Shown here: piece after piece, positions 2,659 through 29,842 of the stretch
How positions within the stretch are numbered: the first letter of the stretch is position 1
Layout of the letters: every line of letters begins with the position of its first letter
Source of the DNA: Flavobacterium sp.
GTDB taxonomy: Bacteria > Bacteroidota > Bacteroidia > Flavobacteriales > Flavobacteriaceae
Direction: 5' to 3'
DNA length: 29,913 nucleotides
Assembly (NCBI GenBank): GCA_024642295.1
Contig: JAHEBK010000001.1
Coordinates: forward strand, 1 to 29,913
The notes under the pieces: generated by a model
What the model saw: only the letters and a program-made list of their open reading frames with translations
Database searches by the model: none
Told to the model about the DNA's origin: nothing
Made by a program: the position numbers and the translations under genes

Positions 2659-3272
2659 AAAAAATAGTCTTTCTACTGGTAGTTGCAGTCTTTTTATCTT
2701 GCAAAAAAGACAACGATAGGCCTAAAGTTTCCAAGGAAGCTAAACAGGATACTACCTCTATAATTTATAATTCTAAAGCAATAGAGCCGTATTTAGAATT
2801 AGACCTTGAGCAAATTGAATATAAAATTGTTGGATTAAAAAACAATCAAAAATTCACAGCAGAAGAAATAAAATTTCCCATAAAAGGAAATGATTTTGAT
2901 TTTAGTAAATCCCCTACTCTTGATTATTATATCGTTCATTCTTTTAATATTGATGCTACAAACTATAAAATACTAGCCTATAACAGCTATGGCGAAAACG
3001 ACTCAAAAGTTTTGAATGTACAATTAAACAGCTATGTTTCAGGGTTGCAAAAGGATGCTTTGCTACTGGATTGTAGATTTACTTTTGAAACCGAATATTA
3101 TCGAAATTTCACTATCAATTCAGATCACACAATTGAAATTAAAAAAATAGCTGTAGAAAGTTTAATTTTTAACGAAGCAGGCGATATTATTGGAAAAAAA
3201 GAGGCCAATGATACTATTACTGAAGTTGTAAAATACAAAATGAATCCTTTAGGAGATTTTACAAAATTATAG
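2655..3272 (+). CDS. Hypothetical small lipoprotein
   Basis: A 205-residue protein with a lipoprotein signal peptide (MKKIVFLLVVAVFLSC; Cys at about 16) followed by a charged segment KKDNDRPK, so it is probably anchored in the envelope. The rest alternates hydrophobic and polar stretches as in a beta-rich domain, without a motif I recognise. Its ATG overlaps the TGA of the preceding peptidase gene by 4 nt, so the two are translationally coupled and probably act together, for example as a peptidase and its partner or inhibitor (inference only). Confidence 0.8.
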   Translation: MKKIVFLLVVAVFLSCKKDNDRPKVSKEAKQDTTSIIYNSKAIEPYLELDLEQIEYKIVGLKNNQKFTAEEIKFPIKGNDFDFSKSPTLDYYIVHSFNIDATNYKILAYNSYGENDSKVLNVQLNSYVSGLQKDALLLDCRFTFETEYYRNFTINSDHTIEIKKIAVESLIFNEAGDIIGKKEANDTITEVVKYKMNPLGDFTKL

Positions 3273-8283: not shown

Positions 8284-8313
8284 TGAGAGGTTTATAGAAT
8301 TGAAGGGTACTTG

Positions 8314-12567: not shown

Positions 12568-14094
12568 TTATTTAGATTTTATTACTATTGTTTGTAATGC
12601 TTTAGCATTTATAGCAATTTTTTTATTTTGGTTGTTGAGTTTTATTTCAATCGAAAACGCATCATCTGTTGGATTAAAAATCACTACAGCAATACTTCCA
12701 TCAGGGTTTTTTGCGGCAGTTGACACCACTTCTTTCGAATTTATAGCGCAGCCTATTTTAACAGCGCCAGGACGTATAAATTTGCTAAAATGTGCCATCG
12801 TATAGTACAATGGTGTAAAATAAACGGCATCTTTTTCTATATCAACTATGACGGGCGCGACACACCAATTTTTAAACCAATTTGGCCCACCTTGTGTATC
12901 TAATACCATATTCCAGTCTACCCAACCATCTACCCAATTATTCAAACAACCTATGATGTCATTTGCATAGCGATTTACAGGGGCATATTTTGGATGTAAA
13001 TATTTTTCTTTTTCACTAGCCCAATCCCAGCCCCAATCTGTAGCTTCTTTTTTCCAATACCAAGCGTCGTCTTTCCAATGTGGTATTTCAGAATCAACAC
13101 AAGCTTCTGTTTGAATTAAATGTTTGGTCGGTGCTTTATGATGTGCATTTTGTAAATATTCTGGGAAAACTTCATAGGTGCTTTCATACCAATGAATAGC
13201 TGTTCCTGCAAAATATTTAGATGAATTTTCATCTCGGTACATTTCATCTACCCATTCTTTCAATCCAGCTCTATTTTGATCGTAGCCTAAAATTTTCACC
13301 TCGCCTTTTCCATCAGCGTCTAATTTTGGTCCTAAATGATTCTGAACAAAATCAGTCATTTCTTTAGGTGAAAAATGGGTGCTTTCCCAATTATTTCCAT
13401 TTCCATGAGGTTCGTTAATCACTGTAACTCCCCAAATATCTATTCCTTCTTTTTTATATGCCTCTATATACTTTGAAAAATATAATGCAAAAACATCATA
13501 GTATTCAGGCAATAATTTCCCTCCCACATAATTTTTATTGTCTTTCATCCAAGGTGGTGCTGACCATGGAGAAGCTATAATATTGAACCCCTCTTTAGAA
13601 ATGGATTTTGCATCCAAAATCATCGGGATTATATCTGACTTATCATCTTCAATTGTAAAATGTTCCAATGTCATATCATTTGGTACTTTTGAATAGGTAT
13701 AATTACTTAATGAAAAATCACAAGAAGCGATATGAGTACGGGTAAGGGAGTAATTAGCTCCTTCTTGGCTAAAATAAGCCTCCAATATTTTTTTACGATT
13801 TTCACCACTTAATCGATGGAGTAATGAAGCAGAAGCTTCTGTAAAAGAGCCTCCAAAACCAGTAATGGTTTGGAATTTCTCATTAGGGTCTAAATTAACT
13901 ACCAGATGTTTTTCACTATTTGTAAATTCTGTTATTTTTTTTAATGAATTTCCCTGTTTAGAAGTTTCGTAGACTGTAACATCCATATCATTTAACTGTT
14001 CACAACTTTGCATCATAAATACCGTAATAAAAAACATTATTAACTTACTAATGAATATGCTCTGTTTAATTCTTATCATTTTTACAATTTTCAA
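12568..14094 (-). CDS. GH30 beta-glucanase lipoprotein (likely beta-1,6 debranching)
   Basis: A 508-residue clan GH-A enzyme of family GH30. The acid/base Glu228 is in VTVINEPHGNGN and the nucleophile Glu330 in HLIQTEACVDSE. The block TGFGGSFTEASA near residue 80 and SPWSAPPWMK near 175-184 are typical of the family. The N-terminus ends with a lipobox FMMQSC (Cys31), so it is an envelope lipoprotein. A shorter start at Met6 (MIRIKQSIF) is possible. In laminarin loci GH30 members remove beta-1,6 branches or act on beta-glucosides, which fits here. It is separated by 3 nt from the GH17 lipoprotein gene upstream and 7 nt from the transporter gene downstream, so it lies in a single operon. Confidence 0.9.
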   Translation of the reverse strand: MKIVKMIRIKQSIFISKLIMFFITVFMMQSCEQLNDMDVTVYETSKQGNSLKKITEFTNSEKHLVVNLDPNEKFQTITGFGGSFTEASASLLHRLSGENRKKILEAYFSQEGANYSLTRTHIASCDFSLSNYTYSKVPNDMTLEHFTIEDDKSDIIPMILDAKSISKEGFNIIASPWSAPPWMKDNKNYVGGKLLPEYYDVFALYFSKYIEAYKKEGIDIWGVTVINEPHGNGNNWESTHFSPKEMTDFVQNHLGPKLDADGKGEVKILGYDQNRAGLKEWVDEMYRDENSSKYFAGTAIHWYESTYEVFPEYLQNAHHKAPTKHLIQTEACVDSEIPHWKDDAWYWKKEATDWGWDWASEKEKYLHPKYAPVNRYANDIIGCLNNWVDGWVDWNMVLDTQGGPNWFKNWCVAPVIVDIEKDAVYFTPLYYTMAHFSKFIRPGAVKIGCAINSKEVVSTAAKNPDGSIAVVIFNPTDDAFSIEIKLNNQNKKIAINAKALQTIVIKSK

Positions 14095-14097
14095 CTA

Positions 14098-15339
14098 TTA
14101 AGGTGTTTTAACATCTAAAAATAAAGCGTCCATGTTACCATCATACGTCTTTGAAATAGGCTTACCATCCCGAGTTAGATTTTTAAAAACACCTTTATCA
14201 ACTAAATCCCACAGGACATACTTTGCTTGTGATTTTAAATTTATTAGCCCAAAATGATTTTCGGAACCTAATTCATTCCCACTGTCTTTCCATTTTTCAT
14301 CAAATGCTTCAAAATAAAAAAGCGTTATTTTTTCTTTATTTGTCCATTCTCGCATTAACTTATAATATAAAGCCGATTTATATTCATCCGTTGCTTTGGA
14401 ACCTGAATCTCCATAATGCTCATTACAAACAGTAGCCCAACCCGTTTCACCAATATGAACCGGTTTATCAACTCCCATTGATTTCATGTAATCCACTACA
14501 CTTTTATATTGTGAAATAGCATAATCTCTAGCTCTAGCCATCGATAAATCAATCTTTTCTTTTGGTACCAATGAATTTTCATTTTCTTTTGTACCCCAAA
14601 AAATTGGATTATAATGAGTATCGTGCATGGGGTAAGTATGCATCGAAATGTAATCAACAGCTTTGATAAGTTGCTTTAAATCTTCCACATGATATTCGGC
14701 ACCTCCTCCGCCCCATGAAGCAAAATTATCAGAACTAGTTATCCAAATTTTTTCAGGTAGTTTTCCTTCCTTTTTTTGGTTTTGCAAATAATTAACCCAT
14801 TTTAAAATTGTTTTAGGTTCAACATAATAACTTGTCGCCCATTTAACCATTGCTTCATTACCTACTGCAATCACCTTCACTATTTCAGGATATTGATTTG
14901 CTAATTTAATAGCCTCCTCAATTTCAATCGCGTTTCGCTCACTTTCCTCATTATGAATTGGAGCACGATCAGTCCAGGCATTTTTACAATCTATCCAGGC
15001 TCCTAACATTAGATACATTTCAAAATTGGCATCCTTTTCTTTTAATGCTCTTATGGCTTCTAATAACCGAGAAGCTTCTTTATGATGAACATTGTAAGTC
15101 CTGATGACTTTAATATTCATAGCTGCCATAATTTTTAAATCCTCCGTAATTTGTGCAACAGTAGGTTCAACATCTCTCGTTTTTGTTCTATATCCACCAT
15201 AACAGATGGCTTGGTAATCTGGATTTCCTATAATTTGTTCTGGACTGATATCCATAATTTTTTTAGAATGCATATTTTTTAGTCTACAAGAAGTAAATAG
15301 TGTTAGTAGTATTAAAAATTTAATAATAGAATTTTTCAT
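14098..15339 (-). CDS. GH17-family glucanase lipoprotein
   Basis: A 413-residue lipoprotein (LILLTLFTSC, Cys18) of family GH17. The acid/base Glu162 is in VIAVGNEAMVKW and the nucleophile Glu298 in VHIGETGWATV; VIRTYNVHH (about 78-86) and FYFEAFDEKWK near the end are further typical blocks. It is longer than the cytoplasmic GH17 of the same locus and only distantly similar to it, so it is not a recent duplicate. Gaps of 3 nt on both sides place it firmly in the operon with the phosphorylase and GH30. Likely cuts beta-1,3-glucan fragments in the periplasm or on the surface. Confidence 0.88.
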   Translation of the reverse strand: MKNSIIKFLILLTLFTSCRLKNMHSKKIMDISPEQIIGNPDYQAICYGGYRTKTRDVEPTVAQITEDLKIMAAMNIKVIRTYNVHHKEASRLLEAIRALKEKDANFEMYLMLGAWIDCKNAWTDRAPIHNEESERNAIEIEEAIKLANQYPEIVKVIAVGNEAMVKWATSYYVEPKTILKWVNYLQNQKKEGKLPEKIWITSSDNFASWGGGGAEYHVEDLKQLIKAVDYISMHTYPMHDTHYNPIFWGTKENENSLVPKEKIDLSMARARDYAISQYKSVVDYMKSMGVDKPVHIGETGWATVCNEHYGDSGSKATDEYKSALYYKLMREWTNKEKITLFYFEAFDEKWKDSGNELGSENHFGLINLKSQAKYVLWDLVDKGVFKNLTRDGKPISKTYDGNMDALFLDVKTP

Positions 15340-15342
15340 TTA

Positions 15343-18300
15343 CTATAAAAAAATGGACACTTTGATTAAACTAATTACTCCTTCACGTTTGAATATTTTT
15401 TGGCTTATATCATGGTTTAAAGTCAATGATGAAAATGTTTCGGTTGCACCAGAACTAAACACTACTTCAATGCTTTTTTTATTACTTAATTTATAGATTA
15501 TTGGCACTTGACAAATGGTAAAAGCTAATTCCCCTTTCTCTAATGTCATCTCGAATGATTTATTTTTGACATCAACAAAAACAGCTTTCTCTTCCTGTTT
15601 TAGAAATTGATTTTTGCTTAAAAAAGTAGGGTGGAATTTTATTAATCCATCAACTACATCAATACCTAATTCTCCTTTTCTGGTAAGGATGTCTTCTTTT
15701 ACTTGGCCAGTCATTCCAGGCTGTTGTGCTCCTCGATGCGATGGAGTATGAGAATAGGGGTCTGTAGGGAACGCACCATATAATTCAGCTGTTTTATGAA
15801 CTCCAATTCCTGCACCAATTTCTTCATAATGAGAAACCAATTTGTTTATGACACTACTATCCTCTTTTTCTTCATACGCATTTTCAATTACCTCTAGCAC
15901 TGCTAAATGTAGTTTAGAAACCATATGCCAGTAAATTGAGCCCAATCCTTCGTAGCCGAAAAAAGTCCCCGACCTACCAGTAAATGCCTTATGATTAAAT
16001 ACATTTTCAAAAATTTGCAGTAATTCCTCTGATTCTTTTTCAACTAAATCATGGTATTCTTTTTGATTTTTAAGTTGATTTAAAGCTTCCTTAAGGTCAT
16101 TCGCGTTATTGAAATTTCCATTAAAATGGTAACCTCCCCTAATATCTTTATTGACTACCAAACTATTATTATTAGCCATTAACTTAGTTAGTAGGGCAGA
16201 ACTTTCTATATTTTCTTTTGGAATATTATTCTTTTCTAAAAATTTAGGCAAGTCCTTATTTGGATACAAAATATAACTATTTTGGTCTTTTCGATACAAC
16301 GCACTATTTCTTAATGACTCTAGTATTTGAAGAGATTCATTTGCGCTTAAGACTCCAGAGCTTAAAACTGCCACTTGTCCTTCGAGCATTTCACTAAGAT
16401 TTGATACCAAAACCCCATCATTCTCAATGGACATCAAATTATAAGAATGATACAGTTTATCAGGTCTTTGATTAGCACTAATTGAATGTTCTATAAAAGC
16501 CAAACTAACCTTTGTAAACGTCTTTAAACCAGACATGGAATGGGTTCTTTTCTTGCCCCAAAATCCACTGTTATACACTTGAATGCGATATTCAGAAGCA
16601 GCTTTCCCTAATCGGTCTATTATTTTTTTACGGTTTTTGTCATCAATTTTTCCTGAAAGCAACTGTTGATTTTCAACTAAACATTCTCTAACTTCATGAT
16701 AAAATTCAACCATTTCATTAGAAATTTTTATTGTATCTAAATTCGAAGCGTCTAACAATTTTTCGAACGTTTTTAAAAATCGTCGCAAATAACAAAGTGT
16801 TACCATGGATACTCCGTTCCCTACCAATGCATTGTTAGCATCATTCCATTCTGGTCGTTGCGTATTCATCCAAATTCCACCTTCTGGAATAAAGTTTGAC
16901 ATTTTTGCCAAAACGGTAGCTAAGATTTTTTCAATAAAATTTACATGATAAATGGCATCTGTATTATCATAAATTAAGGCGCCATCAGCTCCGGTTTTTT
17001 CACGACGTTCAATTATTTTTGCTTCCCAATCATGACTGTATTCTATTGTGTCTTTGGGATTTTTAAGAATGTCCTCATACGATTTTATTGTATAAGGAAC
17101 TGCTGCATATACAAAACATTCATTTTCAAAATAAGAATTTAGTTTACCTGGATAATACTTTTCTATAAACTCTAAAAATTTTAATAAATAAATAATTTGA
17201 TGATCTCCCCAATATCCAATATATGACCATGGATTATCCGGTTCTATAGCTTCCCAATCAAATCCAGATTTAGTTACTCTGTATGGGTTGTATCCATCAA
17301 ATGTAGATGCGTTTAAAAACTTGTGAATCATCCCTTCAATAAAATTAGGATAAGCATGTGCTAATGATTCCCAATTTTGAAAAATATCCCTCCAATTTCC
17401 TTCGTAATCTAATATTTTAGAATCATCAACTTCGCTACGAGTATTGATAGAAAACTTGTTCCAAGGGCGGCTAGGATCACCATGTCTACGACTGAATTTT
17501 AAAGGCAAATACTCCGTGCAGAGTCTTACCAGATCTTGATTAACCTGAAGTTTCATCAATTCCAGTAATTCGATATATGAAAATTGATTTTTTAAATCTT
17601 TTACAAATGATTGATTACTTTGAAACAACTGATTATTTGCTTTTGACAAATACAAAACAAAATCCTTCTTGTCGATTTGATAGTTTTCATCAAAAATACC
17701 CCCACGCATGATATTAAAAAGCACATTAGAGAAATGTCTAGTGTCAATTAATTTATCTTCTGTAAATTGAAGTCCATCTGCGGAAGCGTTAAGCGATATT
17801 AAATTTTGCTTGCCTAATTCAACATCAATACTAAGTTGCGATTCAAGTGTTTTATCATGAATTATAGACTCTGAGAGTTGAATAACCTGTGACTGGTTTT
17901 GATTTACATTGGCAATGATTTTCCATTCTTTGGAAGTGTTTTTATTCAAAAAAATATCCTTTGAAATAAAATAAGCACCTTTCTCGCCTTTAATATCATT
18001 CTCTGCCGATACTTTTTGGAATTTCCTAAAAGCAGGGAGCTGCCTAGATGAAACTAAATGAATAGCATCATTCAATCCCATAGACCACACTACATTTGCT
18101 TTAAGAGCTTCACTAGGCTCTGCTTTATCCACAATTATGGCGCTCAAAGCATATACTCCTATTCCACTCTCTCCTAATAGTTCATTTCTTTTATAAGCAT
18201 CAACAAGATTACTTGTGCTTGATTGTAAATCACTACTAACACCATAGGGCATAATATTTTGAATACCATCAAGTATAGAAATAGCATAATCAACATTCGA

Positions 18301-18741
18301 GTTATTGATAATTTCTACAGTTCTAATAAAGCCAAAAAGATTAGTAGAGCTCCATTGATACCTGTATGTTAACTGTAAATCATGATGAATTTCTTCAAAA
18401 ATAATTTTATTCCCATACAGATTTTTATATAAATTTCGGGTCAGCTTATAGCTGTCATTAAAACGCTCTGAAAAAGGTTCCCAAACTAATTGCGTACTAT
18501 CAAACTGAATTTGAAAAATTGATTTACTTCCCGTAAAATCGGCAAATTCTGTTATTTTATCATCGGTATAATATGGAAAAAGTGCGTATTCTGCATTCTT
18601 TCTTCCTGCTGTAAGACCGCCATTACTTGATATAAACAGCCAGTGATTAGAATCACTAACTAAGCTCATAAAAAATGGACGCATGCTATCGCAATTTTCT
18701 ATTTTATAATATTTCTCTCCTGCTAATTCGACTAACTTCAT
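15343..18741 (-). CDS. GH149-like beta-1,3-glucan phosphorylase
   Basis: A 1132-residue cytoplasmic protein without a signal peptide. It has a GH94-related phosphorylase layout: N-terminal beta-sandwich (about 1-370), (alpha/alpha)6 barrel (about 390-1040), and small C-terminal beta region. The motif PEWNDANNALVG (630-641) matches the GH94 catalytic-acid motif (DWND), placing the acid at Asp634. HTPSHRGAQQPGMTGQV (996-1012) lies where the phosphate-binding segment is expected. The length near 1100 residues, and company of GH16, GH17 and GH30, point to GH149, whose known members phosphorolyse beta-1,3-glucans to glucose 1-phosphate; GH161 is the main alternative. It is the first gene of the second tight gene set, 340 nt after the binding-protein gene. 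Confidence 0.75.
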   Translation of the reverse strand: MKLVELAGEKYYKIENCDSMRPFFMSLVSDSNHWLFISSNGGLTAGRKNAEYALFPYYTDDKITEFADFTGSKSIFQIQFDSTQLVWEPFSERFNDSYKLTRNLYKNLYGNKIIFEEIHHDLQLTYRYQWSSTNLFGFIRTVEIINNSNVDYAISILDGIQNIMPYGVSSDLQSSTSNLVDAYKRNELLGESGIGVYALSAIIVDKAEPSEALKANVVWSMGLNDAIHLVSSRQLPAFRKFQKVSAENDIKGEKGAYFISKDIFLNKNTSKEWKIIANVNQNQSQVIQLSESIIHDKTLESQLSIDVELGKQNLISLNASADGLQFTEDKLIDTRHFSNVLFNIMRGGIFDENYQIDKKDFVLYLSKANNQLFQSNQSFVKDLKNQFSYIELLELMKLQVNQDLVRLCTEYLPLKFSRRHGDPSRPWNKFSINTRSEVDDSKILDYEGNWRDIFQNWESLAHAYPNFIEGMIHKFLNASTFDGYNPYRVTKSGFDWEAIEPDNPWSYIGYWGDHQIIYLLKFLEFIEKYYPGKLNSYFENECFVYAAVPYTIKSYEDILKNPKDTIEYSHDWEAKIIERREKTGADGALIYDNTDAIYHVNFIEKILATVLAKMSNFIPEGGIWMNTQRPEWNDANNALVGNGVSMVTLCYLRRFLKTFEKLLDASNLDTIKISNEMVEFYHEVRECLVENQQLLSGKIDDKNRKKIIDRLGKAASEYRIQVYNSGFWGKKRTHSMSGLKTFTKVSLAFIEHSISANQRPDKLYHSYNLMSIENDGVLVSNLSEMLEGQVAVLSSGVLSANESLQILESLRNSALYRKDQNSYILYPNKDLPKFLEKNNIPKENIESSALLTKLMANNNSLVVNKDIRGGYHFNGNFNNANDLKEALNQLKNQKEYHDLVEKESEELLQIFENVFNHKAFTGRSGTFFGYEGLGSIYWHMVSKLHLAVLEVIENAYEEKEDSSVINKLVSHYEEIGAGIGVHKTAELYGAFPTDPYSHTPSHRGAQQPGMTGQVKEDILTRKGELGIDVVDGLIKFHPTFLSKNQFLKQEEKAVFVDVKNKSFEMTLEKGELAFTICQVPIIYKLSNKKSIEVVFSSGATETFSSLTLNHDISQKIFKREGVISLIKVSIFL

Positions 18742-19081: not shown

Positions 19082-20941
19082 CTAAGGATTAATCACAATT
19101 GAAACATTATCTAAATACAAAGTTGAGTTACAGCCTGGTACACCACCGCATATAGCAACAAACTCAGATGTAATTCCGCCGCTTACATCACCCGCATTTA
19201 CCGTATATGTTGTAGTAAAAGACTGCCAAGAAGCAGTTGGAGTAACTGCAATATTTACAACTTGATTAACACCACTTGCAGCTTCAACAAAAGATTGAAT
19301 AGAATAAGCACCACTTATTCCTGCAAGTGATCCTTTATAATCAAAAGAGATTTTTACTTTGTCACCAACTTTAATTCCTCCAGCACCTTTTCTTTCTTGT
19401 TTAAGAGTTGGATTCAATCCAGAAGGACTAGCTTCTAATTTAGCAGACCATGTTCCTGTTTTACTATCGGTGTTAACAGCTTCTACAATCCCGCCATTTT
19501 TATAAACTGCCCATCCGTCAAGGTTTCCATTTTCAAAACCTCCGTTGGTAGCTATTTCGCCTGCTGCTGGAGTACCACCTCCACCACCACCGCCTGTAGT
19601 CCTTTCATAAACTTTAAGATCATCAAAATAATACGTATTGGTATTGTTTCCATTCAAGTCAAAGAATATTACAATCTTGTTGAATTTATTTGTGTTAGTT
19701 GCTGCAAAAGGAAATGTTAATTCTTCCCATTCATTGGTTTTAGTAGTAGTTAGTTCTAATTCCGTATTATTTCCAGCATTACCTATTTCTTCTAATTTTA
19801 ATCTAACTTTAAATCCTGCTTTAGCTGAATACACTTTTATTTTTAAACCTGCATTAGCTGTAAAATCCAATTTGGCATTCAAATTAATTTGGTTGTTATC
19901 CCATGGGAATTGCCCACTTTTAACAATCTTAGCTACTTTACAAGAACTATTAAGTGCATTTGTTGCATTAGGATTGTCAGCCCATGAAAAACCTGCTCCA
20001 TCTGAAATTATAGATGTACTCAAATCAGTTTTAAAAGTCATATTCAAACCTACAGCACCTAGTGTTTCTGCAGTTTCTGCAGTACATGTTCCGCTTCCGC
20101 CTCCGCCTCCGCCAACACGAGTATATAATTTTAGGTCATCAAAGTAATAGGTATTTGTATTTTTTGTAGCCAAATCAAATATCAAAACAATTTTATCATA
20201 TTTACCACTAGCAGTCGTAGGGAAATCAATCGTTAGCTCTTCCCATGCACTTGTTTTAGTGGTTGCAACTTCAACTTCAGTATTGATAGCCGCATTTGCT
20301 TTATCTTCTAATTTTAATAATACTTTAAAACCTGGTACTTGAGAATATACTTTTATTTTGAAACCTGCATTAGCGTTTAAATCTAATTTTGAACCTAAAG
20401 CAATTTGCACGTTATCCCATGGATTAATTCCTTGTTTTGATACCTTACCAACTTTACAAGAACTATTGATTGCATTATCATAATTAGGATTTGATACCCA
20501 AGCAAAACTTGCTCCATCTGAAACAATGCTTCCAGCAACTGGTTCTGTTTTAAAAGTCATGTTTAAGCTAGCAGCAACTAGTGATTCTGCTGTTTCTGAG
20601 TTACAAGGGATTGTAGGTACTGTAATTGTAATTACACTTTCATAAGTGTCTGAATCTCCCGCTAAATTTCTTGACTTTAATACTACTGTGTGTGTTCCTG
20701 CACCAAAGGTTTTGATAGGATTAATATCAGTAGAGGTTTCACCATCTCCAAAATCCCATTCATAGTTTTTGGCATTTTCTGAAATATTTATAAACACCAC
20801 TGTTCCAGTCGTAGGGTTGATGGTATAGGTATAACCTGCTACTACTTCAGGGTAGTTCGTGTTTTCATCAGTACATCCAAAAAGGGATATTGTCAAGATC
20901 AAAATTGAAATTTGCTTCACTATTTTTATTAAATGTTTCAT
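19082..20941 (-). CDS. Surface glycan-binding lipoprotein: PKD, duplicated beta-domain, CBM4/9-like
   Basis: A 619-residue lipoprotein (ILTISLFGC, Cys23). Order of parts: PKD domain (about 31-108; YEWDFGDGET is the PKD hallmark), repeat A (about 113-275), poly-Gly linker (277-282), repeat B (about 286-446), a second poly-Gly linker (450-456), and a C-terminal CBM4/9-like jelly roll (about 460-619; TNGGFENGNLDGWAVY). Repeats A and B both end in NTNTYYFDDLK and share SSCKV, PWDN, IKVYS and WEELT. No catalytic motif is seen. As the last gene of the set after GH16 it probably holds laminarin at the cell surface, in the role that SusE/F-like proteins play elsewhere. Confidence 0.82.
   Translation of the reverse strand: MKHLIKIVKQISILILTISLFGCTDENTNYPEVVAGYTYTINPTTGTVVFINISENAKNYEWDFGDGETSTDINPIKTFGAGTHTVVLKSRNLAGDSDTYESVITITVPTIPCNSETAESLVAASLNMTFKTEPVAGSIVSDGASFAWVSNPNYDNAINSSCKVGKVSKQGINPWDNVQIALGSKLDLNANAGFKIKVYSQVPGFKVLLKLEDKANAAINTEVEVATTKTSAWEELTIDFPTTASGKYDKIVLIFDLATKNTNTYYFDDLKLYTRVGGGGGGSGTCTAETAETLGAVGLNMTFKTDLSTSIISDGAGFSWADNPNATNALNSSCKVAKIVKSGQFPWDNNQINLNAKLDFTANAGLKIKVYSAKAGFKVRLKLEEIGNAGNNTELELTTTKTNEWEELTFPFAATNTNKFNKIVIFFDLNGNNTNTYYFDDLKVYERTTGGGGGGGTPAAGEIATNGGFENGNLDGWAVYKNGGIVEAVNTDSKTGTWSAKLEASPSGLNPTLKQERKGAGGIKVGDKVKISFDYKGSLAGISGAYSIQSFVEAASGVNQVVNIAVTPTASWQSFTTTYTVNAGDVSGGITSEFVAICGGVPGCNSTLYLDNVSIVINP
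19604..20605 (-). repeat. Internal tandem duplication in the binding-protein gene
   Basis: Two consecutive segments of about 160 codons (about 20605-20117 and 20086-19604) encode the related domains A and B, each closed by a poly-glycine linker coded by GC-rich GGN runs that stand out in this AT-rich DNA. Similarity is clear in protein and moderate in DNA, so the duplication is not very recent. Confidence 0.75.
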
Positions 20942-20965: not shown

Positions 20966-21904
20966 TTATTGTTTGTAAACTCTTACGTAATCAATCAGCA
21001 TCGATTGTGGAAAAACAGTTTCGCTATTTGGAGCTCCTAAAAAATCGCCACCAACGGCTAGGTTAATGATTATATAGAATGGTTTGTCAAAAGCCCATTT
21101 GTTCCATCTTGCTTTTAATTCAGTACATCTCTCTTCTGATAACCCATTACATAAATATTCCGGCATAGGACTTGTTGGTAAGTCTTTGGGAGTTATTTGA
21201 TTATACAACACATCATCTATATAATAATTTATATAATTTGGCCCCCATTCAATACCAAATACGTGAAAACCAGTATCAAAACGATTATCTAATAAACTAT
21301 AACTTTTTGAAATGGATGTACCACCTGAATACCCTAGACCATGTACCGTACCTAAGACTTTTGTAGGCTCTTGTCCTCGAAACTCCATAATATCAATTTC
21401 ACCACAACTAGGCCAACCCACTTCATCTGAATCTGCTCCTAGAAGCCAGAAAGCAGGCCACATTCCTTGTCCAAAAGGCACTCTAATTCTAGCTTCGAAG
21501 CGACCATAAGCTTGGTCAAATTTACCTTTAGTCAATAATCTTGCAGAAGTATAAGAAGCACCTTCATAAGATTCTTTTCTAGCAGTAATGATTAATACTC
21601 CATTTTGCACAGTCACGTTTTCTTGTCGATTGGTGTAATATTGCAATTCGTTATTACCCCAGCCATTAGTTCCAGTACCAATGTCATACCCCCAAATGGC
21701 ACTATTAGGTGCTCCATTAGTGTCAAACTCATCTGACATAGTCAATTGACTAAAAGTAGTGACTGTTTGTTTTTCATCTGTAGTACAACTTGAGATTACA
21801 AAAAGTGGCATCGCTGAAAGGAATGCTTTAAAAAGCAGCGATTTTACTCGTATTGAATTTATATATGTTTTTTTCATTTTTTCTTGTTTTACTATTTTCA
21901 CCAT
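20966..21904 (-). CDS. GH16 laminarinase lipoprotein
   Basis: Compact GH16 endo-beta-1,3-glucanase. The longest frame gives 312 residues, but the Met at residue 10 (MKKTYINSIRV) is the likelier start: an A-rich stretch precedes it and it opens a normal lipoprotein signal ending FVISSC. The signature GEIDIMEFRG provides nucleophile Glu169, Asp171 and acid/base Glu174 (numbering from the first Met). WPAFWLLG and the C-terminal SMLIDYVRVYKQ are characteristic. Unlike the second GH16 of the locus it has no extra domain and no T9SS sorting signal, so it is anchored by lipid. It lies between the two glycan-binding lipoprotein genes. Confidence 0.92.
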   Translation of the reverse strand: MVKIVKQEKMKKTYINSIRVKSLLFKAFLSAMPLFVISSCTTDEKQTVTTFSQLTMSDEFDTNGAPNSAIWGYDIGTGTNGWGNNELQYYTNRQENVTVQNGVLIITARKESYEGASYTSARLLTKGKFDQAYGRFEARIRVPFGQGMWPAFWLLGADSDEVGWPSCGEIDIMEFRGQEPTKVLGTVHGLGYSGGTSISKSYSLLDNRFDTGFHVFGIEWGPNYINYYIDDVLYNQITPKDLPTSPMPEYLCNGLSEERCTELKARWNKWAFDKPFYIIINLAVGGDFLGAPNSETVFPQSMLIDYVRVYKQ

Positions 21905-21909
21905 TATTG

Positions 21910-23346
21910 TTATTCTTTGTAGAAATACATATTATCCATATAAAGAGCTTTTACATTAGAAGATTTTATATTTTCAATGATAATTAAATTGACACCTGTT
22001 TTATCCAATGACGTTTCAGACGTTGGTCTAATTGGAATTTTAATTGTTGCCCATACTCCTGCTTGAAAATTAGAACTAGGATAAACCACTGGAGCTCTAG
22101 GATCTAATTGATAACTTTGACCAATACGGTTTTGTTGAAAAGTAGTAGCAGTACTATTTTCATTTTTAAATGTTAGGAGAAGGTCGATATCAGTTGGTAA
22201 TTCTAACATCATGATATCAACACTAAAATGAGTCATGTCCGAAATGTTTAATGGAGTTGTAAGCTGCGTACCAACAAAATTAAAATCGGCATAATTAATT
22301 ACATTCTGACCTTTTACAGCAATTGCTCCTCCAGTTGTTGTTTGGTATGGTGCCCAAAATCCATTGTAATAATTCACAGGTACATTTGCATATTGGTCAC
22401 TAAAAACTGAAATAACCTTACTTTGAGGTAATGTAGGTAAAGGTGCTACAGGAAAACCACCCGCAACATTAATTGTTAAAGAACCAACTGCTTTAACACC
22501 TGCAATAGAAGCTGTAATCTTTGAAGTACCTGAACCTACAATGGTAACAATACCAGAATCACTTACTCTAGCAACTTCTATATCGGATGATTTAAACGAA
22601 AAATAAGAAGGAGCAACAGTAATAGATTGATTTAAACCCGATTCCAAATTAAATGTTTCTGTTAAACTATAATCAGCCAAATTGAATACATCTCCCAAGA
22701 ACTTAGTTTCTACTTTATCTAAACCATTAGCAATAAATGGTCGTGGTTGTGCAATCGTTCCTAACTTTTCAAATTTCAACTCATCAATCCAAAAAGTATA
22801 GCCTTTATCATTTTCAGGTCCTTCGGCATACCAAAACATTCCTTTTTCTAAAGTCAATTTTGAGGCATCTGGAATAGGAATAATCACTTTTGTCCAGTTT
22901 GTAGTCAATGCTACATTCTTGATGGTTGTAACGTATTTGTTTTCACCAAAATCATTCCCAAAACCAGCTTCATTCAAAGTAGCAGCTTGAGAGGCTTTTA
23001 TCCAAAAAGTTAGCGAATCAAAGTCTGACAAATCGCGACCACCATCAGGAAATATTGCTCCTGCATAAGATCCTGCAGGATTTCCAACATTAGGAACATC
23101 AAATCGCATTGAGGCAGTTCCTTTGAATTTTACATCTGTATCCACCGTGAAAGCATTTAAAACCGAACCTGAAAAGGGATAATAATTCAAGCCTCCACTA
23201 AATCCATCTATAAAGACATCACCCGTTTTTGGATAAGTTGCAAAAGCTACCTCATCAGAAGGATTTCTGTCACATCCAACAGTCACCGTTAGAATTAATC
23301 CCAAAAGCAATGTTATTTTTGAATATATATAATTGTTCTTTTTCAT
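21910..23346 (-). CDS. Surface glycan-binding lipoprotein with Ig-like (Big2) domain
   Basis: A 478-residue lipoprotein (ILTVTVGC, Cys25). An N-terminal beta-sandwich (about 40-195) ends with YTFWIDELKFEK, as in carbohydrate-binding jelly rolls. A bacterial Ig-like domain follows (about 205-295; SDSGIVTIVGSGTSKITASIAG is typical of Big2). A second beta-sandwich (about 305-478) ends with ALYMDNMYFYKE. There is no catalytic signature. Position directly after the enzyme-barrel fusion gene (15 nt) and 5 nt before the GH16 gene suggests that it presents beta-glucan to these proteins on the cell surface. The two sandwiches could be separate binding modules. Confidence 0.8.
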   Translation of the reverse strand: MKKNNYIYSKITLLLGLILTVTVGCDRNPSDEVAFATYPKTGDVFIDGFSGGLNYYPFSGSVLNAFTVDTDVKFKGTASMRFDVPNVGNPAGSYAGAIFPDGGRDLSDFDSLTFWIKASQAATLNEAGFGNDFGENKYVTTIKNVALTTNWTKVIIPIPDASKLTLEKGMFWYAEGPENDKGYTFWIDELKFEKLGTIAQPRPFIANGLDKVETKFLGDVFNLADYSLTETFNLESGLNQSITVAPSYFSFKSSDIEVARVSDSGIVTIVGSGTSKITASIAGVKAVGSLTINVAGGFPVAPLPTLPQSKVISVFSDQYANVPVNYYNGFWAPYQTTTGGAIAVKGQNVINYADFNFVGTQLTTPLNISDMTHFSVDIMMLELPTDIDLLLTFKNENSTATTFQQNRIGQSYQLDPRAPVVYPSSNFQAGVWATIKIPIRPTSETSLDKTGVNLIIIENIKSSNVKALYMDNMYFYKE

Positions 23347-23361: not shown

Positions 23362-26300
23362 TTATTTACCAATATTAATGTGTATGTACGTTCTAATCTC
23401 CCATTCATTTCCGTTAGGGAAACCTATAGGACTTATTATAGGTGAAGTAGCAAATTCTTCGGCTACATTAGGACTGTAACGAGGGGAATATTGATTAAGG
23501 GAACGCCAAGTACCACGAATTCCAATCTGTGTATTGGGTAAAATAAACCAATCCGGTTTTCCAACTGTTGTTGATAGATCCAGCATTAATTGAACTGGAT
23601 AGGTCAAGTTAAAATCACGATGATAATCAAATGGTCCCCAATCGTTAATTTTAAAACTATGTGTTAATTTGATTTTATTATAAAGCACTCTTACATCTCC
23701 TCCAATACGCTCTATTAATCTGGCGTCACTACCATTAGATTGTGCATTACCAAAGTAGAAATTAGCAATTAAACCTAAATCTGGGTGTACTTTAGATACC
23801 ACTCGTGAATTTACTTCCCACAAATCATTTGCAGGTGCTGAATTAGGAAATGCAAATGATGTTCTATTGCTTAAAAAACCAATTGCTGCATCTTGAGTTG
23901 TAGGCAAATGACGGTAAACAAAGCCTAAATTAAAAGCAAACTTAGCATCTTCAGCTCTATCATTATCCCATTCATACATCCATGTTCCTGGTGTAGGATC
24001 ATAAGTAAGTAATAACTCTCCCGCAACAGTTTCTCTATTTCCTCTTACCGCAAATGGATCGTCTTGAATATTTCTAAGTCTTCCAGGACCTTGAACATCA
24101 TTTGGCATAGCCGCAACAATAGGTTTTTGCCATAAAAAGTTAGGTGCTATTTGAAAATTACCCACACCAACAGTAAAACCTGTTAAAACATTCGTTTGAT
24201 TTCCGCTACCGCTGTCTTTCAATTTCCAGCCTGTAAAAGTTTTTGTATTGTCAGCACCGCCATTGGCAACTAAGCCCATTGCTGCGGCCTGTCCGTACCA
24301 ATTAAAAGTACCTTTTGAATAAGTCAATTTAACTTTACCGCCCCAATTGTCCATTGAGTTAATTTTATCGGTGAATACCGTATACTTAACGTATCCAGGT
24401 ACCTCAGCATGATCAGGAATACCATTTAGATTCAAATCTAAAATAATTGATGGTTTGTTCTCATTGGCAAATTGAAATTCTCTTCCGTTTAAAGGTTGCC
24501 CTCCCCAAATACCACCAACTTCAATTCCTAATTGACCAAGTTTTGTTTTTGCATGCAATGTTACTCTACGCGTTTTTGGAAGTGGAATAGCGCCCGAAGT
24601 AACGGCATCAGCAGCATCAGCAATATCTTCGTGATAAATCCCTGTAAGATTAAATCTTCCTACTTTTTTACTGTATTTTAATAAAACCGCTGGATTGGCT
24701 CCCCACCAAAGTTGGGGCCCAAAGGCTGCTTTAAAACCATTAAGTGATTTTTTACCGTCAATTTCAAAACCTGAAATCTCACCATTATAAATATCTAAGT
24801 TAGGTCCGTAATTCGCTTCTGGGTATAGTCCAAAAAAATCACCTTCATATCCCCAATGATAATGTCCTTTACGATAAAACCCTCTTAAATCAAACTCTTT
24901 TGCATTCCATTCATATTCCGCATTATAAATCTGAACCCGATTAATATCTGTAAGTTCTAAATTTCCTTCTGTTGTATTTACAGTTTTAGAACGTCCTCTA
25001 TTCTCATAGAAAATTTCATCAATTGGATTTTCAGCAACATGCCCCAGAATATTAACATTAATATTGGCTCTCATATTTGAAGAAGGTTTTCCTTCAACCC
25101 CTACAAAATAGGATTGCATATGATCAAATCCCAATTTATTAGGATAAGTTGTTGTTTCCGTATCTTCATTTTTAGGCGTTGTAATTAAACTTCCGCCTGT
25201 ATTGAATGTTGTAAATTCAGCTCTTAAATTACTTAAACTAATTTTATCGCTACTAGTACTATTTAATGCAGCTTTATCTCCTCTTGCTCTTAAAACAGCA
25301 TCCATAATTTGAATGTTTTTAAAAGCGTTATCAATATATTCTAGCGTTGCTCCATCAGCATACGGATTGATATTATGTGCTTCTTTTAGAGCGTAATAAG
25401 TAGCTCTCGGGTATAAATCATAAAGTCCTCTTTCATTTGTTGGTCCTTTGGCACAAATACCAAACCACTCTTCATTCATATTATTTTCACCAACTTTATA
25501 GTCCTTAGCATAACCACCATTACTCCAAGATGCATTGCTATCATGAATATCTAAGTTTTTGGTTTGCCCAAATTTCCACCAACCATCACTAAATTGGAAC
25601 GTAAAACCACCAATCGAATTTTGAGCTTTTCCTAAACCGGCTGCATTTTCATATATTTCTTTCCAATTACCTAAATCGTAAAAAGCTTGCATTTTTTGAT
25701 CCTCTTGATTTTCTATTGCATTAAAGGCATCTGAACCAAACTCTGTAAATAAAATTGGCTTATTCACTTTGTCTTTAACAACTTTAAATGCGTCTCCAAA
25801 AGATACACCACGATACATATTAACTCCATAGATATCAATATTTTTACATTCATCTGCAACAATATCAATGAATAGTACATCACCATTACAAAGGGCTACA
25901 GGTTGATTTGAATTGATTGATTTCATTTTAATTGCAGCGTCATTCATAAGTTTATACATGGGTCTACCACGTTTTTCACCTATAAATTTTTTCTGTTGTT
26001 CATCATCAGGAAAATCTTCAGTATCTGCACCAGCCCAAAATAAACCATAGTTGTTTTCGTTACCTAGTAAGAACAATAAAACTCCAGGTGTATTTTTATA
26101 TACTTTGGCCATTTCAGTTACTTCATTCAGTAATAACTGTTGTGTTTTTAGATCACTGTAATCTGTAACAGGAACCCATACGCCATTTATGGTAAGGCCA
26201 TATCTACCAAATGGATGATTAAGCATGGTGTAAATACCATAATTTTCATAAATATATTTTATCCATTTTGGCTGTATCCCTGTGTAAATTCTAATGGAAT

Positions 26301-26559
26301 TTACACCCATATTTTTCAACAAACCCATTTCAGCATCAAGTGCCGCTTTAATTACGTCATCTGACTGCTTCCATAAGCTGTAATTGTAATTAGTGCCTAT
26401 TGGAAAATAATCCCAGTTCATACCGTTGATCATAAAATCTTTTCCATCGACCACTAATTTCATTCCATTATCATTAGTAACAACTGACACTTTATTTGAT
26501 TGTGAAAAAAGAGAAGTCGTTATTAAAGAAAGTATTACTAATAGAATTTTGTTTTTCAT
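23362..26559 (-). CDS. Clan GH-A glycosidase fused to an outer-membrane beta-barrel
   Basis: A 1065-residue exported protein (signal peptide MKNKILLVILSLITTSLFSQ). Residues about 25-400 are a TIM-barrel glycosidase of the GH2-C/GH5-like type: FMINGMNWDYFPIG, SIRIYTG, LLGNENNYGLFW with likely acid/base Glu168, and ILFTEFGSDAF with likely nucleophile Glu273. After a linker (about 400-480) the rest, to residue 1065, is a succession of amphipathic beta strands rich in aromatic and Gly residues with Asp/Asn-rich turns (e.g. FGPQLWWGANPAVLLKYSK, VQLMLDLSTTVG). It ends EWEIRTYIHINIGK, as in outer-membrane barrels. One loop, DLNLNGIPDHAE, looks like a calcium-binding repeat. It is the first gene of the set after the regulator. 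No TonB box or plug domain was seen. GH family number is uncertain. Confidence 0.78.
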   Translation of the reverse strand: MKNKILLVILSLITTSLFSQSNKVSVVTNDNGMKLVVDGKDFMINGMNWDYFPIGTNYNYSLWKQSDDVIKAALDAEMGLLKNMGVNSIRIYTGIQPKWIKYIYENYGIYTMLNHPFGRYGLTINGVWVPVTDYSDLKTQQLLLNEVTEMAKVYKNTPGVLLFLLGNENNYGLFWAGADTEDFPDDEQQKKFIGEKRGRPMYKLMNDAAIKMKSINSNQPVALCNGDVLFIDIVADECKNIDIYGVNMYRGVSFGDAFKVVKDKVNKPILFTEFGSDAFNAIENQEDQKMQAFYDLGNWKEIYENAAGLGKAQNSIGGFTFQFSDGWWKFGQTKNLDIHDSNASWSNGGYAKDYKVGENNMNEEWFGICAKGPTNERGLYDLYPRATYYALKEAHNINPYADGATLEYIDNAFKNIQIMDAVLRARGDKAALNSTSSDKISLSNLRAEFTTFNTGGSLITTPKNEDTETTTYPNKLGFDHMQSYFVGVEGKPSSNMRANINVNILGHVAENPIDEIFYENRGRSKTVNTTEGNLELTDINRVQIYNAEYEWNAKEFDLRGFYRKGHYHWGYEGDFFGLYPEANYGPNLDIYNGEISGFEIDGKKSLNGFKAAFGPQLWWGANPAVLLKYSKKVGRFNLTGIYHEDIADAADAVTSGAIPLPKTRRVTLHAKTKLGQLGIEVGGIWGGQPLNGREFQFANENKPSIILDLNLNGIPDHAEVPGYVKYTVFTDKINSMDNWGGKVKLTYSKGTFNWYGQAAAMGLVANGGADNTKTFTGWKLKDSGSGNQTNVLTGFTVGVGNFQIAPNFLWQKPIVAAMPNDVQGPGRLRNIQDDPFAVRGNRETVAGELLLTYDPTPGTWMYEWDNDRAEDAKFAFNLGFVYRHLPTTQDAAIGFLSNRTSFAFPNSAPANDLWEVNSRVVSKVHPDLGLIANFYFGNAQSNGSDARLIERIGGDVRVLYNKIKLTHSFKINDWGPFDYHRDFNLTYPVQLMLDLSTTVGKPDWFILPNTQIGIRGTWRSLNQYSPRYSPNVAEEFATSPIISPIGFPNGNEWEIRTYIHINIGK

Positions 26560-27025: not shown

Positions 27026-29842
27026 CTATACAGCTAGAATATACTCAACAAGGCCTTGTTCATGCGCCAAATCCATTTTTTTACGTAAACGGTATCTTTT
27101 TATCTCCACAGATCGAACGGAAATATTCAATAGAGGTGCAATTTCTTTAGAGGATAAATTCAATCGTAAATATGCACATAAACGCAAATCATTTGGTGTT
27201 AATGAAGGATGTGCTGCTTTTACTTTTTTCAAAAAGTCTTTATCTGTATTATCAAAAGCTTCTTGAAAAACACTCCAAGCATCATCTTTAGTTATATTTT
27301 TATTAATTATGGAAATAACTGATTTGATACTTCGATTATCACTTTCTGCTGTTTTCTTTAAATCCTCTTGGATAAAACCTAACAATTCATTTTTGTTATT
27401 CAAACTCATTGTAGATGCCGCAAGCTCTTTATTAATACTGTCAACATCTTGAGAAAGCTGTTCATTTTTAAGGCGCATCATTTGTTGCTCATTTTCTAAT
27501 TCTTTGATTTCTAGCAACAAGTTATTCTCTTCTATTAATTTCGCTTCTTTTCTTTGATAATATCGTTTGTATTGTTTGTGAATTATTCGTGCTACAAATA
27601 GTATTAAAATAAAATAAATAAATATTGCTAAATTAGTCCCATACCAAGGTTTTAAAATCGTAAAAGAATAAACGACAGTATTTTCTAAATTAGAGTTTGC
27701 AAATTTTGCTTTCACTTTAAATACATAATCACCAGAGGGTAAATTCTTAAAATTTACTGATGATTTTGTATTCCAATCACTCCATTCCTCTTGAAAACCT
27801 TCTAAAACATATTGGTATTCTGGATTCAAGTATTTATTATACTCTGGAACGGTAAAACTGAAACTAATATTATTTTCACTGTGATTATAAGTCCCTTTTT
27901 CCTGAATAGCATTATAATGAACGACTTCATTCATTGTATTAGTAATGATCCCCGTGATAGAAACTTTATAATTTTTGAAAACCAAATCATTAATATTCAT
28001 TGTATAATACCCATCAGTGGTTCCAAATAAATAATCGGAATTTGATAATTGAGAAATATTTTCATACCCCAACATCGAATTAGTTATAGAGGCAGGAATC
28101 GGAATGCTATTTTGTTTGAGTTGGTCACTTAACTTCGTTGCGGCATAATAACTAGTATAATTTTTTGAAAACAACCATATTTTTTGAGAATTATCCACAA
28201 TCATTTTACCGGAGGTGTATTCATCTTTTTCAAATACAGAGCTTAATAAGGAATCTTTTTTAAATTCCTTTGTTTTAGGATTCAATTTAAAAACACCCTC
28301 TTTATAAGCATAATAAATTGAGTTGTTGAATTTCGTTAAACTAGCGTTTTTCCCTTTGGTTGGATATTCGTAAGTAGTATACTTTTTTACTTTTTGAAAT
28401 TGGTTGTCTATCTCTAACCTAAAAACACCTTTGTATTCATGGCTTACAAAAATTTCAAACGTATTGGTTGGATCAAAATGCTTTGACGAATAATCAAATC
28501 CTTGTATTTTATTTCTAAAAGACCATTGATTGTTATGCTTTTCCAGAACTGAAATACCATAATAGTTTCCTTGCAACAAAAGATTCTTTTGACCAGGCAA
28601 TTTTTCAAATTTCCATGTTCCAGATTTAGAAAATATAGTTTGAATAATACCATTATCTACAATATATGTTCCCCTGTCGTGCCCACAAAACAAAGTATTA
28701 TCATACACAAACAAAGACCAAACTTGCCCTTTAGTACCACTAACCAACTGAAAATCATCATTACTCTTGTACTTTTTATAAAAAAGTCCCTGGTTAGTTC
28801 CTACATACAATTTTCCATTATAAAGCTTTGAAGTGTAAACGGTTCCTAAAACACCTGAATCATCAACAAAACTCTGAATAGGCGATTGTAAATTAATGCA
28901 GTTAATTCCGTTGTCAAGACCAATCCAAAGATTTTTTTCGGCATCTTCAAATAATGACAAAGCGGTATTATTACTTAATCCTTTTCGTTGCGAAATATGG
29001 TATTGTTTTTTTCCTTCTTTAGATAAAATAAAAATCCCATTGGAAACTGTCCCTACTGCATATCCTCCAGAAGACAATAACTCACTACTAAACACATTAC
29101 TAGATTCCAGCTCAACATCAGCTTCAGTAGCGACTTTAGACAATTGCGTGCCTGACAACATATAAAAACCCTGGGTTTCAGTCAAAATCAATACCCCTTC
29201 TTGTGCTGCAAAAACATTGATTATTCTATTAGACTTTAATATCGGATGATTTGAAATCAATTTACTTTTTCCTCCTTCAATTTCATATAACCCATCATGA
29301 TAGGCTTGGAAATATATAGCATTTGGTGTTTTAAAAGATTTCAAAATACTGGTGCTAGCAGCAATAATTTTAAATTTTCCCGTTTTTGAATCATAAATGT
29401 AAATTCTATTCAAAGACTGAAAAATTAACCATTGGTCAAAACTTAAGATATTCCAAAATTGTTCATCATCAAGAATATGCTTTTTTATGGATTTACTCAG
29501 TGAGTGATATTGAAGTAATCCATCAGCTTTCCGTTTCCAAAAACCAAATTCCATATAACTACCTGTGTATATTTTATCACCAATCACTTTTACAGAACGA
29601 ATGATAGTTTCATTTGGCGAAGGGTACAATTGCCAATTTGAACCATTGAATTCCAATAGTCCATCATTATTTGCAAAAAAAACAAATTGATTTTGGTCTT
29701 GAGAAATCATCCAGTTTTGATTTCCTGCTCCATAGGTTTCAGGAACATATTTTACAATGGGTGGTAACTCCTGAGCTAAACTAAATAAAAAGTTAAACAA
29801 AAGTACTAATGAGAAATATAGGGTATTTTTACTTTTAAGCAT
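27026..29842 (-). CDS. Transmembrane sensor-regulator: beta-propeller, Y_Y_Y, LuxR-type HTH
   Basis: A 938-residue one-protein signalling system. A signal peptide (MLKSKNTLYFSLVLLFNFLFSLAQ) is followed by a large periplasmic beta-propeller region (about 30-645; repeats such as LFEDAEKNLWIGLDNGI are Reg_prop-like), and a Y_Y_Y domain (about 655-731; YQYVLEGFQEEWSDW, LPSGDYVFKVKA). One membrane helix follows (about 737-755; LAIFIYFILILFVARII), then a coiled coil (about 760-830) and a C-terminal LuxR-type helix-turn-helix (about 878-935; LTPNDLRLCAYLRLNLSSKEIA, SVRSVEIKRYRLRKKM). There is no histidine kinase or receiver domain, unlike hybrid two-component regulators. It probably senses glucan fragments in the periplasm and activates the adjacent operon, in the manner of SusR-type regulators. 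Confidence 0.9.
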   Translation of the reverse strand: MLKSKNTLYFSLVLLFNFLFSLAQELPPIVKYVPETYGAGNQNWMISQDQNQFVFFANNDGLLEFNGSNWQLYPSPNETIIRSVKVIGDKIYTGSYMEFGFWKRKADGLLQYHSLSKSIKKHILDDEQFWNILSFDQWLIFQSLNRIYIYDSKTGKFKIIAASTSILKSFKTPNAIYFQAYHDGLYEIEGGKSKLISNHPILKSNRIINVFAAQEGVLILTETQGFYMLSGTQLSKVATEADVELESSNVFSSELLSSGGYAVGTVSNGIFILSKEGKKQYHISQRKGLSNNTALSLFEDAEKNLWIGLDNGINCINLQSPIQSFVDDSGVLGTVYTSKLYNGKLYVGTNQGLFYKKYKSNDDFQLVSGTKGQVWSLFVYDNTLFCGHDRGTYIVDNGIIQTIFSKSGTWKFEKLPGQKNLLLQGNYYGISVLEKHNNQWSFRNKIQGFDYSSKHFDPTNTFEIFVSHEYKGVFRLEIDNQFQKVKKYTTYEYPTKGKNASLTKFNNSIYYAYKEGVFKLNPKTKEFKKDSLLSSVFEKDEYTSGKMIVDNSQKIWLFSKNYTSYYAATKLSDQLKQNSIPIPASITNSMLGYENISQLSNSDYLFGTTDGYYTMNINDLVFKNYKVSITGIITNTMNEVVHYNAIQEKGTYNHSENNISFSFTVPEYNKYLNPEYQYVLEGFQEEWSDWNTKSSVNFKNLPSGDYVFKVKAKFANSNLENTVVYSFTILKPWYGTNLAIFIYFILILFVARIIHKQYKRYYQRKEAKLIEENNLLLEIKELENEQQMMRLKNEQLSQDVDSINKELAASTMSLNNKNELLGFIQEDLKKTAESDNRSIKSVISIINKNITKDDAWSVFQEAFDNTDKDFLKKVKAAHPSLTPNDLRLCAYLRLNLSSKEIAPLLNISVRSVEIKRYRLRKKMDLAHEQGLVEYILAV

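Follow-up and report, generated by a model that had tools for sequence, protein, structure and literature searches.

We analysed a stretch of 29,913 nucleotides (nt) from Flavobacterium sp. (assembly GCA_024642295.1, contig JAHEBK010000001.1), hereafter called the window. It contains a minus-strand gene whose product joins a predicted glycosidase to a predicted outer-membrane beta-barrel in one protein, referred to below as the fusion. This architecture is real, widespread and, within the literature searched, uncharacterised. The gene and its parts are as follows.

23362-26559, minus strand: glycosidase/outer-membrane-barrel fusion gene, 1065 amino acids plus stop (open reading frame; 120 listed homologues align over 97-100% of its length)
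26500-26559, minus strand: predicted Sec signal peptide, residues 1-20, without lipobox (by eye; predicted helix 2-17)
25360-26490, minus strand: clan GH-A TIM-barrel domain, residues 24-400 (Pfam GH2_C; PDB profile match to GH158; AlphaFold2 and fold searches)
26056-26058, minus strand: E168, predicted acid/base, in N167-E168 (invariant in 101/101; aligned with BuGH158)
25741-25743, minus strand: E273, predicted nucleophile, in TEFG (invariant in 101/101; aligned with BuGH158)
25261-25344, minus strand: helical linker between enzyme and barrel, residues 406-433 (AlphaFold2)
23368-25242, minus strand: predicted outer-membrane beta-barrel, residues 440-1064, about 24 strands (AlphaFold2 model, strand analysis, fold searches)

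The initial annotation had proposed an enzyme and an outer-membrane barrel in one polypeptide, with two catalytic glutamates in place and neither lipid nor type IX secretion system (T9SS) anchoring. Each of these points held up. Structure prediction and fold searches returned a clan GH-A glycoside hydrolase (GH) fold and a barrel of about 24 predicted strands. By eye, the Sec signal peptide of the fusion has no lipobox. A loose lipobox pattern occurs in 10/80 fusion homologues, none of which has an acidic residue within the next six positions. Pfam matched no T9SS C-terminal sorting domain in the whole protein or in either half.

Clan GH-A enzymes are TIM barrels with an N-E pair after strand 4 and a glutamate at strand 7. 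The N-terminal domain has this pattern: N167-E168 follows a predicted strand at 160-165, and E273 closes a strand at 269-273. These three residues are identical in all 101 relatives of the alignment (A3) that was also the source of our PDB profile search. The best matches in that search were two solved GH158 enzymes, 9oro (E = 6.4e-4) and 6pal (BuGH158; E = 8.9e-4), and the top Foldseek matches of the enzyme domain were GH158 and GH157. N167-E168 and E273 align with the N-E and E of 6pal, where the aligned glutamates are chain residues 115 and 198 (counted on the printed alignment), a spacing of 83. The accessible part of PMC7157763 describes GH158 as a family with laminarinase activity and gives E137/E220 as the catalytic pair of BuGH158, likewise 83 apart. 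These data suggest that the GH-A domain is likely a glycosidase, with both glutamates at the catalytic positions invariant.

The sole Pfam match in the fusion is GH2_C, the GH2 TIM-barrel model, and it is weak (26 bits, cut-off 21). GH2 proteins carry sugar-binding and immunoglobulin (Ig)-like domains ahead of the TIM barrel. No such domains were found in the fusion, in which the signal peptide leads directly into the TIM barrel, and its outer-membrane barrel is no part of GH2. We therefore rejected GH2 membership on the basis of this domain order and the match to GH2_C alone.

The C-terminal half (440-1063) is predicted to form one closed outer-membrane barrel of about 24 strands, closure being judged by end-to-end matches to closed barrels. 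When this half was modelled alone, all 50 listed VIA-align matches were membrane beta-barrels by title, with PapC and FimD on top; VIA-align on the full model listed glycosidase folds only and is uninformative for the barrel. The strand alternation of the barrel half was reached by none of 2000 shuffles. On this ground and on that of the fold searches, we rejected a chance match or a set of soluble beta domains. Pfam matches nothing in the barrel half up to E = 5, and a PDB search gave no credible sequence relative of it, the single match (E = 0.5) being an antibody light chain. Family searches of both halves, which the initial annotation had suggested, gave matches for the enzyme, weakly with GH2_C and by profile with GH158, and assigned the barrel to no Pfam family. 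No plug or TonB-receptor domain was matched by Pfam in the whole fusion at E up to 0.001 or in its halves at E up to 5.

As a general rule, outer-membrane barrels point their short turns to the periplasm. The enzyme joins strand 1 on the short-turn side, where the turns have a median of 2 residues by either strand count and a sum of 53 with 24 strands counted. The far-side loops have a median of 27 residues and a sum of 293 with 24 strands counted, and a median of 19 with 26. By the above rule, this entry point predicts a periplasmic location for the enzyme domain. The initial annotation had pictured an enzyme feeding its product through the pore into the periplasm, a direction that is probably reversed.

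Mean conservation is 74% over the whole barrel and 78% over the GH domain. The most conserved barrel stretches are the far-side loops 565-593 (95%), 617-623 (100%) and 974-986 (96%), in which F, W, Y and H make up 29-38% of residues, compared with 15%. Purely outward-facing loops are usually variable. We infer that the conserved far-side loops resemble a binding path inside the pore, as in a channel rather than a mere anchor. The near-side segment 854-873 is conserved at 88% and could contact the enzyme.

Uncharacterised homologues exist, as the initial annotation had anticipated: 5339 of 7998 scored candidate proteins match at E ≤ 0.001. In a scan of genome contigs, a relative is encoded in at least 578 of the 587 stretches that bear the pattern. 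Sources include Flavobacteriaceae, Saprospiraceae, Lewinellaceae, Chitinophagaceae/Chitinophagales, Melioribacteraceae and Ignavibacteria. Sharing of the fusion between genomes, for which a count had been suggested, was gauged in a sample of 395 genomes of the phylum. Matches at E up to 0.001 occur in 48 of them, in some cases remote or confined to the GH part, and 35 carry a barrel piece, fragments included. We saw no barrel without the enzyme in these 395 genomes, where frames with a barrel reach at least 1028 amino acids save for fragments (G235, 300 amino acids; a second piece of 99 in G204; G119, 55 amino acids, E = 0.005). None of the 20 survey genomes from the window's own genus has a match. 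Therefore, the gene may have entered this genome by lateral transfer, or it may be lost frequently.

The next gene encodes a lipoprotein, hereafter the partner.

21910-23346, minus strand: partner, 478-amino-acid lipoprotein with a carbohydrate-binding module (CBM) part like CBM30/CBM11, a Big_2 Ig part and a further C-terminal part; begins 15 nt after the fusion gene

The N-terminal part of the partner resembles CBM30/CBM11 and the middle resembles a Big_2 Ig domain, although the window copy matches weakly. By its domains, the partner is likely a surface glycan-binding protein. A SusD-like Pfam match was found in 0/40 partner members.

We examined the gene company of the fusion in 80 loci, the best 80 of the at least 578 relatives and so the closer ones. 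The partner is present in all 77 loci that have DNA downstream of the fusion; the three without it (L106, L107 and L124) stop 0-309 bases past the fusion. Our script scored it as the next gene in 76/77 loci. The exception is L060, where the partner frame was called about 200 bases inside the fusion and removed by the overlap filter. A further 32 fused loci (L042-L050, L150-L162 and L163-L173 minus L168, which lies at a contig end) all have the partner, upstream rather than downstream in L166. A partner profile search found none in the 13 loci where the enzyme is encoded without a barrel (solo-GH loci L031-L036 and L143-L149), some of which lie on short contigs; L037, on a 3-kb contig, was left out of this count. 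When comparing 32/32 fused to 0/13 solo-GH loci, Fisher's test gave P = 1.4e-11, with the related genomes not being independent. The enzyme occurs without the barrel, and in loci with flanking DNA the barrel was not seen without the partner, a pattern as expected of a channel and its lid.

All 13 solo-GH loci have at least one of the GH149, GH17, GH30 and major facilitator superfamily (MFS) relatives, GH149 being present in 12. In seven of the solo loci (L031-L037), tblastn found no barrel sequence. Five of the 13 solo proteins (L032-L036) have a lipobox-like pattern, followed in no case by more than two acidic residues within six positions; the remainder lack such a pattern and mostly show a signal-like start (by eye; L149 is ambiguous). 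These N-termini fit a periplasmic enzyme. Most barrel-less proteins keep a C-terminal helix-like stretch similar to that of the fusion. A GH tree was built from 61 domains (43 fused, 14 solo and 4 outgroup; every fourth locus of L051-L130 was taken). Solo rows fall inside fused groups more than once, and well-supported branches force at least five changes. This placement suits repeated loss of the barrel; with the ingroup base of the tree lacking resolution, a solo-first origin is also possible. Some GH matches have an in-frame stop, for example solo G415 and G417 and fused G408. Genome G418 carries both a fused (L158) and a solo (L145) copy. L038-L041 encode, close to GH16 or GH17 genes, remote relatives that have the GH part alone (22-26% identity); the two that were scanned, L038 and L039, show weak GH72-like similarity, and L039 also has a carboxypeptidase-regulatory-like domain.

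The initial annotation had read the context as laminarin-type, in agreement with the GH149, GH16, GH17 and GH30 neighbours listed here.

27026-29842, minus strand: one-protein regulator combining a propeller repeat with a Y_Y_Y domain and, slightly below its cut-off, a LuxR-type match (Pfam)
20966-21904, minus strand: GH16 lipoprotein, predicted surface endo-glucanase (Pfam, N-terminus, acidic tail; relatives in 70/80 loci)
19082-20941, minus strand: PKD and CBM4_9 lipoprotein, predicted surface binding protein (Pfam, N-terminus, tail; relatives in 36/80 loci)
15343-18741, minus strand: GH149 1,3-beta-glucan phosphorylase, no signal peptide seen (NCBIfam equivalog, 1752.7 bits, cut-off 1150)
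14098-15339, minus strand: GH17-like lipoprotein, predicted periplasmic (Pfam 24.2 bits, under the 28.2 cut-off; N-terminus, tail)
12568-14094, minus strand: GH30 lipoprotein, predicted periplasmic (Pfam, N-terminus, tail)
11028-12560, minus strand: MFS_2 sugar transporter (Pfam)
10118-11038, minus strand: GH17 without signal peptide, 11-nt overlap with the MFS gene (open reading frame, Pfam, N-terminus)

Relatives of the Y_Y_Y/LuxR regulator lie upstream of the fusion in 64/80 loci. GH149 relatives were found in 56 of the 80, GH17b in 53, GH30 in 37 and MFS in 25, genes far downstream being undercounted where loci end at 10 kb or less. Acidic residues after the lipobox are a surface-export mark in Bacteroidota. 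We found a lipobox in 52/80 partner, 64/73 GH16, 25/33 PKD-CBM4, 39/56 GH17b and 27/32 GH30 proteins. At least two acidic residues stand in the six positions after it in 45/52 partner, 55/64 GH16 and 25/25 PKD-CBM4 proteins, and in 5/39 GH17b and 6/27 GH30 proteins. The GH16, PKD-CBM4 and partner lipoproteins mostly have acidic tails of the surface-export type.

Other features of these loci were noted. At 5782-10023, after the laminarin genes, lie T9SS-type proteins, namely CHU_C with Ig_7 and GH16 with Por_Secre_tail; relatives of GH16_T9 occur in 6/80 loci and of the CHU_C protein in 1/80. Two plus-strand frames of 174 and 205 amino acids at 2134-3272 have no Pfam match at E up to 0.01. In L163, L164 and L165 (Melioribacteraceae/Ignavibacteria type), the partner and GH16 genes are separated by one for a protein of 415-423 amino acids, and a GH149 relative was not seen within 20 kb. 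The MFS and signal-less GH17 genes (10118-12560) may be a split form of the Formosa MFS-GH17 fusion described in the available part of PMC6246565.

We searched for SusC, SusD and TonB receptors near the fusion by phmmer with the corresponding frames of the window's genome (E up to 1e-8), in the 54 loci whose flanks each reach at least 9 kb; the other 26/80 were left out for short flanks. In 43/54 fused loci, none was found within 9-10 kb. This frequent lack of SusC/SusD nearby and the tie of the barrel to the partner gene go beyond the initial annotation. The idea that some fused genomes have no SusC-model match at all failed (0/37). Two genomes that carry the fusion, the partner, GH16 and MFS, G066 (100% complete) and G255 (99%), gave no SusC match above the curated cut-off (49/54 first-look SusC candidates scored in G066, 27/27 in G255) and no match to the SusD models PF07980 and PF14322. 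They do have many weaker SusC-model matches in frames of about 700-1070 amino acids, which may be other TonB receptors; the SusC model also matches in E. coli, and sub-cut-off matches may be any TonB receptor. The same two SusD models found nothing in G051, where a single SusC exceeds the cut-off, or in G144, which also has SusC.

The sequence with its domain matches, the invariant residues, the order of the genes and the joint absence of barrel and partner are direct observations. For their meaning we lean, with moderate confidence, towards the fusion being an entry channel without a plug, which would admit pieces of beta-1,3-glucan and carry its own glucanase on the periplasmic side. Outside the cell, the partner, the PKD-CBM4 protein and the GH16 endo-glucanase would bind and cleave laminarin. 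Glucan fragments would cross a wide pore without a TonB plug, with the conserved, partly aromatic loops as the selective path. At the predicted periplasmic mouth, the tethered GH-A domain would shorten fragments on arrival and keep an inward gradient. The GH17 and GH30 lipoproteins would assist trimming in the periplasm, the MFS protein would import the products, and GH149 phosphorylase and cytoplasmic GH17 would complete breakdown. The partner may serve the barrel as SusD serves SusC. More tentatively, and somewhat short of an even chance, this could be a second, TonB-plug-free mode of beta-glucan import in Bacteroidota, in which a barrel of about 24 strands, a glucanase at its inner mouth and a dedicated surface lipoprotein replace SusC/SusD. 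We regard the fold as well supported and the orientation as moderately supported; for the transport role the evidence is conservation and gene company alone.

Several observations weigh against an entry channel with its own glucanase. VIA-align ranks GH157, GH2 and GH158 level for the enzyme structure. The barrel's TM-scores against single PDB chains are modest, at most 0.39 among the 50 matches listed, and model confidence (pLDDT) is below 50 in some barrel loops. The strand number is 24 or 26 depending on the short strands 694-700 and 726-732, with parity and orientation unchanged. Loop conservation is of a mixed kind, as the far-side loop 762-787 is conserved (87%) yet non-aromatic (8%). 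Most solo-GH loci likewise lack a nearby SusC/SusD pair (2/13 have one), so local absence is weak evidence.

The GH domain might instead be threaded outside as a surface-anchored enzyme, autotransporter-like, with the barrel merely an export pore and anchor. The N-terminal domain and the helix ahead of strand 1 recall classical autotransporters, which likewise have a helix before strand 1, and surface-type lipoproteins are encoded nearby. However, autotransporter (type V) barrels, which export an N-terminal passenger, have 12 or 16 strands, as opposed to about 24 predicted here. A similar helix-like stretch is kept in most barrel-less solo proteins, so that of the fusion need not be a pore helix, and a mere export anchor requires neither loops conserved at 95-100% nor a partner that is absent wherever the barrel is. 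We consider this explanation quite improbable. It is also unlikely, to a slightly lesser degree, that the enzyme is periplasmic, the barrel a plain anchor and uptake the work of a SusC/SusD pair encoded elsewhere. SusC-model matches occur in 37/37 fused genomes tested, 35 above the curated cut-off, making import in trans possible; in 11/54 loci the fusion has a SusC/SusD pair upstream, and related loci have barrel-less solo GH genes. Yet 5/13 solo forms have a lipid-anchor pattern, which makes a 620-amino-acid barrel with conserved loops a costly anchor, partner and barrel are missing together, and the two near-complete genomes described above have neither SusD by two models nor SusC above cut-off. 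Finally, the substrate may be another beta-glucan or a different glycan, the fusion being no laminarin enzyme. The company of GH149, GH17, GH30 and GH16 in the window and many relatives argues otherwise, and we hold this to be doubtful.

An entry channel of this kind would share features with several known systems. Pilus ushers secrete pilins; PapC and FimD are about 10% identical to the barrel and resemble it in size and shape alone. Like SusC/SusD, the locus has an outer-membrane barrel, an adjacent surface-type lipoprotein and enzymes of a polysaccharide utilization locus (PUL), but the fusion has no detected plug or TonB-receptor domain and has an N-terminal enzyme, and the partner is not SusD-like by Pfam. 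The GH158 and GH157 endo-beta-1,3-glucanases (6pal, 9oro and 9fz9) share the clan GH-A fold, with the glutamate pair aligned to GH158, and the solved entries are titled laminarinase or laminari-oligosaccharide complexes. However, identity is 12-21% in the listed structural alignments, and those enzymes have no membrane barrel. The cytochrome-porin Cyc2 also fuses a catalytic domain to an outer-membrane porin, according to the accessible portion of PMC8406198, but its domain is redox-active and serves iron, whereas the fusion is of glycosidase type with about 24 strands predicted. FbGH17B, the Formosa MFS-GH17 protein, is encoded in a laminarin cluster and likewise unites a laminarin hydrolase with a transporter; as described in the available text of PMC6246565, it joins GH17 to an inner-membrane MFS transporter and has no outer-membrane barrel.

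Our literature search, which covered few subscription journals and preprints, returned no recognisable description of a glycosidase fused to an outer-membrane barrel. The accessible part of a 2026 study of Muricauda laminarin PULs (PMC13188888) describes loci that often start with a LuxR regulator and in which a beta-glycosidase of GH2, GH16 in one or two copies and GH149 lie upstream of GH17, GH30, MFS and GH17. In the Muricauda/Allomuricauda loci L085, L097, L100, L104 and L116, the GH2_C-type gene between the LuxR-type regulator and GH16 is the fusion. It is very probably the gene listed as GH2 in PMC13188888, as far as that part of the source goes, and GH2 is also the name given in databases; the words "outer membrane" are absent from the main text. 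PULs without SusC/SusD are known and termed non-canonical in the available part of PMC9122927. The accessible part of PMC6298971 reports four laminarin PUL variants without using the word "porin", and PUL surveys like this one rely on SusC/SusD pairs. Such surveys could overlook loci of the kind described here.

Among the carbon stores of marine algae, laminarin is a major one. Architecturally, the fusion would be an outer-membrane pore with a glycosidase attached. Should it prove to be an entry channel, then a route for algal glucan that is widespread has so far passed as an ordinary enzyme, and organisms that rely on the fusion would allow a test of the part that TonB energy plays in taking up laminarin.

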